This document shows positions 13,167 to 16,405 of a stretch of DNA of 64,000 nt, piece after piece. Position numbers and translations under genes: made by a program. This DNA is from Persephonella sp. (GTDB lineage: Bacteria > Aquificota > Aquificia > Aquificales > Hydrogenothermaceae), in assembly GCF_027023985.1 (NCBI RefSeq), contig NZ_JALVTW010000010.1, positions 1 to 64,000 of the forward strand, written 5' to 3'. Numbering within the stretch: the stretch's first letter is position 1; every line of letters starts with the position of its first letter. The notes beneath the pieces were generated by a model. It made no database searches. It was not told the DNA's origin and saw only the letters and a program-made list of their open reading frames with translations.

Positions 13167-14369
13167 CTATTCTCCGGTTTTTCTTGTTATTGCTTCAAGA
13201 CATGGAAGTTGCTTTCCTTCAAGAAGTTCCAGAAAAGCACCACCACCTGTTGAAATGTAGCTTATATCATCTACAACACCAGCCTTATGAATTGCATAGT
13301 CTGTATCTCCACCGCCCGCTATAGACAGAGCCGGAGATTCAGCTATTGCATGGGCAAGGGCAAATGTTCCATATTTGAATTTTTCCAGTTCAAAAACGCC
13401 CATTGGACCGTTCCATATAATTGTTTGAACATCCTTGAGAATTTCTTTAATAAGGGTAGTTGAAGCATGTCCAATATCAAGCCCCATCCAGCCTTTTGGG
13501 ATTTCCTGCCATGCAACCTCAATAACAGGAGTTTGTTCAGAAACAGCCTGCCCACAGATAAAATCAACGGGCAGATAAAACTTAACCCCTAATTGTTTTG
13601 CTTTTTCTATAACTGATAAAGCCTCATCAAACATATCTTCTTCAACAAGGGAACTCCCCACATCATATCCCTGAGCTTTCAGAAAAGTAAATGCCATAGC
13701 TCCGCCAATAAAAATCTTATCCACTTTATCTAAAAGATGTGTTATCACTCCAAGTTTTGAGGAAACCTTTGAACCACCCAAAAATGCAACAACAGGTCTT
13801 TGTGGGTTAACAAGGGCTTTTTCAAAATATTTAAGTTCCCTTTCAAGCAAAAAGCCCATAACTACAGGCTGGATATAATCCTTTATTCCATACATTGATG
13901 CATGTTTTCTGTGGCATGTTCCAAAGGCATCTATAACATAAATATCAGCAAGGGAAGCAAGGGCTTTCGCAAATTCAGGGTCATTTTTTTCTTCACCTGG
14001 ATGAAATCTGAGGTTCTCAAGGAGAACAACATCCCCTTCTTTCATTGAGTTTACCGTTTCTTCAACATCTGGGCCTATACAATCGGGTAAAAACTTAACC
14101 TCTTTCTCAAGAAGCCTTTCAAGTCTTTTTGCCACAGGATAAAGAGAGTATTTGGGATTTCTTTCCCCTTTAGGTCTTCCAAGGTGGGAACCAAGTATTA
14201 TCTTTGCTCCCCTATCTATAAGGTAATTTATTGTAGGAATAGTTTCTCTTATTCGGACATCATCGACAATATTTCCATGTTCATCAAGGGGAACATTGTA
14301 ATCAACACGGACAAAAACTCTTTTTCCTGAGACATCAACATCTTCCAGTGTCATATATCCGTTGAACAT
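13167..14369 (-). CDS. pgk: Phosphoglycerate kinase
   Basis: Phosphoglycerate kinase interconverts 1,3-bisphosphoglycerate + ADP and 3-phosphoglycerate + ATP. The 400-residue length is typical. It has KRVFVRVDYNVPLDEHGNI near residue 15, the substrate-binding GSHLGRPKGE near residue 60, LLENLRFHPGEEKNDP near residue 115, GGSKVSSKLGVI near residue 198, and the nucleotide loop SIAGGGDTDYAI near residue 352. Its ribosome binding site overlaps the upstream gene's stop codon (TAGGAGG). Confidence 0.97.
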   Translation of the reverse strand: MFNGYMTLEDVDVSGKRVFVRVDYNVPLDEHGNIVDDVRIRETIPTINYLIDRGAKIILGSHLGRPKGERNPKYSLYPVAKRLERLLEKEVKFLPDCIGPDVEETVNSMKEGDVVLLENLRFHPGEEKNDPEFAKALASLADIYVIDAFGTCHRKHASMYGIKDYIQPVVMGFLLERELKYFEKALVNPQRPVVAFLGGSKVSSKLGVITHLLDKVDKIFIGGAMAFTFLKAQGYDVGSSLVEEDMFDEALSVIEKAKQLGVKFYLPVDFICGQAVSEQTPVIEVAWQEIPKGWMGLDIGHASTTLIKEILKDVQTIIWNGPMGVFELEKFKYGTFALAHAIAESPALSIAGGGDTDYAIHKAGVVDDISYISTGGGAFLELLEGKQLPCLEAITRKTGE

Positions 14370-14378
14370 TTTGCCCTC

Positions 14379-14741
14379 CTAAAATGGTAAATCGTCCTCT
14401 CCTTCACTTTCACCTTCTATTCCACCTAAAATATCCCAATCTCCTGCATCAATGCCCCTTATTTTTAGGGCTGTTTGTCTAAGGAGTTCAAGATAACTTG
14501 CTATCTCTTTAAATGCTTCAAGCATTGATGAGAGTTTTATTATTTCATCCTCCGAAAGCTGTCCTTTATGCGTTCTAAGTGCTCTTTTTATTGCAGCTTT
14601 AGTTATTACAATCTCACCGGTTTTTTCCTGCCATTCACTCCAGAACTCATTTGTCCCTAATGGACTTTTGACTATAAATCTCTCCAAGTTAGTAAGCTCC
14701 TGTGTCAGAAGCATATCAAAAGAAGAAATCTCTTTTTTCAT
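14379..14741 (-). CDS. Small protein of unknown function ending in an SSB-like acidic tip
   Basis: I do not recognise the 120-residue family. Residues about 1-95 are predicted helical (DMLLTQELTNLERFIV; ITKAAIKRALRTHK; IIKLSSMLEAFKEIASYLEL) and a short acidic G/E/D-rich tail follows. The extreme C-terminus is GEDDLPF. This matches the tip of bacterial single-stranded-DNA-binding protein (typically DDDIPF, ending in Pro-Phe) that docks repair and replication enzymes, yet no OB fold is apparent. It lies between the 37-aa membrane peptide and pgk in the guaB-pgk-suhB-pheA operon, so context does not clarify its job. Only the real-gene call is firm; a link to DNA metabolism is inference. Confidence 0.8.
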   Translation of the reverse strand: MKKEISSFDMLLTQELTNLERFIVKSPLGTNEFWSEWQEKTGEIVITKAAIKRALRTHKGQLSEDEIIKLSSMLEAFKEIASYLELLRQTALKIRGIDAGDWDILGGIEGESEGEDDLPF

Positions 14742-14769: not shown

Positions 14770-14883
14770 TTATTGGTTTCTAAAACGGTTCATTGCATCT
14801 TTTATAATGAACCCAAGAACTACTATAAAAAATATAACAAAGCCTATAGCAGATATTACTGCTGTAATTGGTTCGTGGTGCAT
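14770..14883 (-). CDS. 37-residue single-pass membrane peptide
   Basis: A hand-read small gene: ATG at 14883 behind a near-perfect AAGGAGGTG site, stop TAA at 14770. The peptide has a short polar start (MHHEPITAV), one strongly hydrophobic segment (about residues 8-28, including GFVIFFIVVLGFII) and a basic end (KDAMNRFRNQ). The charge distribution suggests the C-terminus is inside. It sits 13 bases after guaB and 28 bases before the SSB-tailed gene, so it is co-transcribed. Function unknown; the size resembles small accessory subunits of membrane complexes, but nothing specific is recognised. Confidence 0.72.
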   Translation of the reverse strand: MHHEPITAVISAIGFVIFFIVVLGFIIKDAMNRFRNQ

Positions 14884-14896
14884 TTTTCACACCTCC

Positions 14897-16405
<1,509 letters not shown>

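Follow-up and report, generated by a model that had tools for sequence, protein, structure and literature searches.

Bacterial DNA repair is organised by the single-stranded-DNA-binding protein (SSB) through its last few residues. A small protein of Persephonella sp., encoded in the 64,000-nucleotide stretch of DNA analysed here (the window), ends in a tip of the same type, EDDLPF, and the locus raises the question of whether a protein outside the SSB family uses this end as SSB does, recruiting SSB-tip-reading enzymes or competing for them, or whether its acidic tail serves some other purpose.

Gene, distribution and neighborhood

The initial annotation had placed the SSB-type tip on a 120-residue protein at positions 14379–14741. 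These coordinates proved right, and the gene lies on the minus strand, where the ORF comprises 120 codons plus a stop and the encoded protein finishes in GEDDLPF (C-terminal sequence GIEGESEGEDDLPF). The plus-strand reading of the same interval contains 6 stops. The features of the gene, its predicted protein and its surroundings are compiled in Table 1.

Table 1. Features at the locus, in window coordinates
Feature	Position	Strand	Basis or remark
pgk	13167–14369	-	starts 9 bases past the stop of the 120-residue gene; adjacency kept into Aquificaceae
Aquificales-specific single-copy family ORF, 120 aa	14379–14741	-	no Pfam/NCBIfam family; RBS-like GAGG upstream of ATG
SSB-type tip EDDLPF, extreme C-terminus	14382–14399	-	sequence
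C-terminal tail, residues 97–120, net charge -9	14382–14453	-	residues 108–120 predicted disordered
Helix 3, residues 64–94	14460–14552	-	AlphaFold2 model
Helix 2, residues 31–57, FWxEWQ and basic second half (TKAAIKRALRTHK)	14571–14651	-	AlphaFold2; invariant columns
Helix 1, residues 7–25	14667–14723	-	AlphaFold2 model
37-residue single-transmembrane ORF (MHHEPITAVISAIGFVIFFIVVLGFIIKDAMNRFRNQ)	14770–14883	-	between guaB and the 120-residue gene
guaB (IMP dehydrogenase)	14897–16366	-	upstream of the 120-residue gene, same strand

The 120-residue ORF is a real gene, because it occurs once per genome in all 23 of the 23 adequately complete Hydrogenothermaceae and was recovered by profile search from nearly all adequately complete Aquificales genomes searched (families f1, f2 and f3). 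That search returned no member from any genome listed for the class's other families, f4 and f5, and no homologue was detected in the remainder of the phylum. The family is an uncharacterised, single-copy core gene specific to the heat-loving order Aquificales, within which identity between families drops to about 30–45% and the length of the linker preceding the tip is variable. It has no significant match in Pfam, NCBIfam, PHROGs or the PDB sequences, Foldseek gave no significant fold match in the PDB or BFVD, and no paper on the family was found in the literature. A match to the CheA domain H-kinase_dim (E = 0.19) was dismissed as generic helical similarity, and one to BLI1 (PF17324, 5e-4) was set aside as isolated, being found in one member of 12 with the other 11 lacking it. 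An origin from phages or plasmids was likewise rejected, as the phages and plasmids searched contained no family match and none was confirmed in viral contigs.

Directly downstream of the family gene lies pgk in 37 of the 56 loci compared, a set that includes some genomes counted twice, and where pgk follows, the upstream gene is usually guaB (f1) or trpC (f2). The downstream position is taken by a thioredoxin-like gene in other Aquificaceae and by truD in f3. None of these neighbors (guaB, pgk, trpC, the thioredoxin-like gene and truD) points to replication or DNA repair. The initial annotation had considered a protein with such a tip out of place between guaB and pgk; the order guaB, family gene, pgk recurs in other members of the family, however, and so is no quirk of this genome. 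Other Persephonella have a gap of about the same size between guaB and the family gene, but in Sulfurihydrogenibium it is near zero. In one f3 locus, read by eye, a dprA-like gene is found two genes upstream of the family gene.

Predicted structure

An AlphaFold2 model built with 16 homologues (mean pLDDT 77, pTM 0.62) features a three-helix bundle followed by a disordered acidic tail. The strongest signature of the family is a Pro followed by FWxEWQ, which opens helix 2, and then a conserved basic stretch; the invariant alignment columns are P27, F33, W34, W37 and Q38. The tail has a pLDDT of about 36 and is unattached in the model.

The protein resembles SSB (PF00436) in its tip, a disordered tail whose acidic residues lead into a final [IVL]-P-F, as in DDDIPF of E. 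coli. In contrast to SSB, it is a helical bundle with a short linker, and the Pro of the tip is not kept throughout its family. The model, being all-helical, lacks the OB fold of the SSB family, which bears out what had been proposed from the sequence, and the ORF has no PF00436 match. SSB is present separately in the genome, where two SSB genes outside this locus encode proteins with their own tip.

Conservation of the C-terminal tip

Positions in the tip are counted from the C-terminus, -1 being the last residue. The 18 distinct homologues that end in PF, from Persephonella and its sister genera, all share D(-4), P(-2) and F(-1), although the codons of these residues vary synonymously (GAT/GAC, CCA/CCG/CCT, TTT/TTC) and the linker changes in both residue and length. 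Because D, P and F stay fixed while their codons drift, the alignments support selection as what has kept the tip in this group. Family-wide, 58 of the 76 distinct sequences have some other end than PF; Pro-Phe is fixed only within a subset of the Hydrogenothermaceae, and on the tree its presence requires at least 4 gains or losses.

The initial annotation had asked whether the DDLPF end is conserved above the linker and had named homologues without Pro-Phe as the finding that would speak against mimicry of SSB. D, P and F are conserved above the linker in all 18 PF-ending members; about three quarters of the family lack Pro-Phe, although the window's own lineage keeps it. The proposed mimicry retains a full match to the SSB C-terminus (SSB-Ct), kept by selection, in Persephonella and its sister genera, but it is not supported as a property of the family as a whole.

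Across the 76 distinct sequences, an acidic residue stands at position -4 in 75 and a hydrophobic one at position -3 in 52 and at position -1 in 72 (F in 51), position -2 being free (D in 25, P in 19, E in 12). What the family keeps is thus an acidic tail closed by a hydrophobic residue, and the rule for the order as a whole is [DE]-[L/I]-x-[F/L/I]-COOH. Homologues from Aquificaceae end in DDEDIDLDF, those from Sulfurihydrogenibium in EEEI or EEEF, and those from f3 in DDLDDLLF, DDLDDFLF, DADDLFF or DIDDLFL, and some Hydrogenothermaceae have DDISF, the P-to-S change of the SSB113 type, or EEDNL. The genus of genome G041, taken as Aquifex, has no SSB-like tip, its homologues ending in GGT, GGV, GGQ or GGM. 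The net charge of the tail is -6 to -10 in every family member, those of the Aquifex genus included.

Frequency of SSB-type ends in the genomes

From the proteins of the window, about 0.07 C-termini of the form [DE][DE]xPF are expected by chance per 2000 proteins. A genome-wide DNA pattern search of the Persephonella genome gave ten matches, of which five are short chance frames and five are real ORFs, namely the 120-residue protein, the two SSBs (both terminating in SSDEDVPF), a DnaB helicase and a phage-type protein. In four further genomes, the real ORFs that carry such an end are SSBs, two copies of the family protein, one RecT annealase and two proteins of unknown kind. The five genomes combined thus hold 6 SSBs, 3 family proteins, the DnaB helicase, the RecT annealase, the phage-type protein and the two unknowns, to be compared with about 0.35 expected by chance. 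Because the real ORFs exceed chance and are mostly SSBs and replication or recombination proteins, the tip is by this census a specific signal in these genomes, carried mostly by single-strand-DNA proteins.

Comparison with the SSB tips

SSB tips in Hydrogenothermaceae read DEDVPF, DEDIPF or nearly so, apart from a single DDDVPL, and in Aquificaceae most read DDEIPF or nearly so, apart from a single NDEDIVF. In the SSBs of f3 (L115, L123, L150–L153 and L155) Pro-Phe is lost and the ends read DDLDDLIL or DDFDILL, and in other families of the class the SSB ends are DDIEF or ENVEF. Because the Pro position is variable among SSB tips of the class (DDIEF, NDEDIVF, DDFDILL), loss of Pro from the family protein speaks less strongly against mimicry here than it would in E. 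coli.

In f3, the family protein and SSB both depart from Pro-Phe, a parallel between the two tips that is suggestive and comes from one genus. In Aquificaceae, where SSB mostly has DDEIPF whereas the family protein has DIDLDF, the tips do not track each other, and in Sulfurihydrogenibium the tip of the family protein is not parallel to that of SSB. Simple co-evolution with the SSB tip over the whole order was rejected, as it is not seen outside f3. That the protein may be an order-wide decoy or recruiter without an OB fold, vying with SSB for enzymes of repair and replication by a tip adapted to the SSB tip of each lineage, as in f3, we consider distinctly doubtful.

Function of the tail

We tentatively favor the reading that the tail is a C-terminal docking motif acting by the chemistry of the SSB tip, with proteins that read this tip as its likeliest partners in Persephonella. 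In known SSB-Ct sites the terminal Phe occupies a hydrophobic pocket, its carboxylate meets a basic lip and the Asp residues lie against a basic ridge, and deletion of the Phe abolishes binding (PMC10164576). The disordered acidic tail of the three-helix-bundle protein would present [DE]-[L/I]-x-F-COOH, the hydrophobic side chain of its last residue, together with the free carboxylate, would enter a partner pocket with a basic rim, and its acidic residues would assist the docking. Because the motif in Persephonella and its sister genera is the full SSB-Ct (DDLPF), the likeliest partners there would be one or more SSB-tip-reading proteins, which the tail may recruit or compete for. We infer both that the tail binds a protein and that this protein is an SSB reader; actual mimicry of SSB is plausible.

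The evidence is most economically explained by a docking motif that is complete in Persephonella and loosened elsewhere. Such a motif would account for the hydrophobic -1 and acidic -4 positions, retained despite the low identity and variable linker, for the invariant D, P and F with their synonymous changes, and for the company that the tip keeps in the census; it is also consistent with the joint abandonment of PF in f3, with the non-Pro residues tolerated in SSB tips of the class (DDIEF, NDEDIVF) and with the architecture of known SSB-Ct sites. Less easily accommodated are the presence of Pro in only 19 of 76 sequences, the untracked tips of Aquificaceae, the ends of the Aquifex genus and the neighboring genes with no link to replication or repair. 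In addition, DDISF occurs naturally in the family although the Pro-to-Ser change (SSB113) weakens binding to E. coli RecG from about 3 to 23 micromolar, or about 7-fold (PMC10164576). If the docking reading is true, a conserved cellular protein that bears the SSB residues but has no OB fold would compete with the SSB network or adapt it, which is rare in nature, and its variation among lineages would constitute a natural mutational series of the SSB tip. Even without mimicry, a deep-branching bacterial order has here an uncharacterised core gene whose tail motif is open to testing.

The main rival to docking is regulation within the molecule, whereby the acidic tail would fold back on the basic helical core and tune its binding to nucleic acid or partners, the Phe being auxiliary and PF a local elaboration. 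This is favored because acidity is the sole universal feature of the tail and because the Aquifex genus, in which the SSB-like end is gone, has the most basic core (+6 to +8); the conserved basic stretch on helix 2 is also in line with it. The acidic tails of Hfq and SSB are analogues, that of Hfq not being known to have a terminal hydrophobic anchor. Hfq, likewise small and equipped with a basic patch, has a disordered acidic C-terminal domain documented in autoregulation and differs from the present family in its Sm fold (PMC5606850). Fold-back leaves the terminal hydrophobicity of 72 of the 76 tails and the fixed P and F of the 18 PF-ending members unexplained, and the tail is unattached in the AlphaFold2 model. 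We consider fold-back possible but somewhat unlikely.

It is unlikely that the PF of Persephonella is a lineage-specific coincidence in a protein that serves metabolism or translation together with its operon neighbors rather than DNA metabolism. The restriction of PF to part of the Hydrogenothermaceae, its repeated gain or loss and the metabolic operon partners, with pgk foremost, are as this explanation would have them, but the constancy of D, P and F under synonymous codon change speaks for selection acting on precisely those three positions, and in these genomes the tip is otherwise found almost only on SSB and on replication and recombination proteins. That the tail binds the sliding clamp as a non-canonical peptide of the hexapeptide type Q-x-x-L-x-F is very improbable: D-L-x-F fits its last four positions, in agreement with the hydrophobic -3 and -1 and the free -2, but strong acidity is untypical of clamp-binding motifs, and these (Qxx[LM]xF or QL[SD]LF) were rejected since none of the 76 sequences has the diagnostic first Gln at -6, where 66 have D or E.

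Other non-SSB proteins with SSB-type tips

The only precedent found in the literature for an SSB-like motif on a non-SSB protein is DdrB of Deinococcus radiodurans, which is reported to bear the motif outside the SSB family and in which it is reportedly not needed for radioresistance (PMC3834827). As differences from the 120-residue protein, DdrB binds single-stranded DNA and its fold is unrelated.

Within the genomes searched, the tip recurs on two known DNA-processing enzymes that, in contrast to the chromosomal core gene of the window, are apparently of mobile elements. The DnaB-type helicase (L091; G000:C32 about 5705, minus strand; Pfam DnaB_C, 3e-97) ends in TETEDVPF, has a second SSB gene nearby on the same contig and probably belongs to a mobile element. 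The RecT-family annealase (L177; G016:C2 about 1725741, minus strand; Pfam RecT, 3.6e-11) has a GemA-like domain and ends in SDEDVPF, which is the tip of the host SSB. A GemA-like region related to that of the annealase is also present in the phage-type protein of the Persephonella genome (L094; C33:25491), which ends in DDDVPF.

A 162-residue open frame (L160; G041:C1 about 117420, minus strand), which matches nothing in Pfam or PHROGs, has the end SKDDDEIPF, resembling the tip of that genome's SSB, and is a candidate for another non-SSB protein with an SSB tip. An unknown protein of 166 residues (L175; G019:C2 about 87168) ends in DFDDEPPF and is encoded on a small replicon that also has SSB-domain matches.
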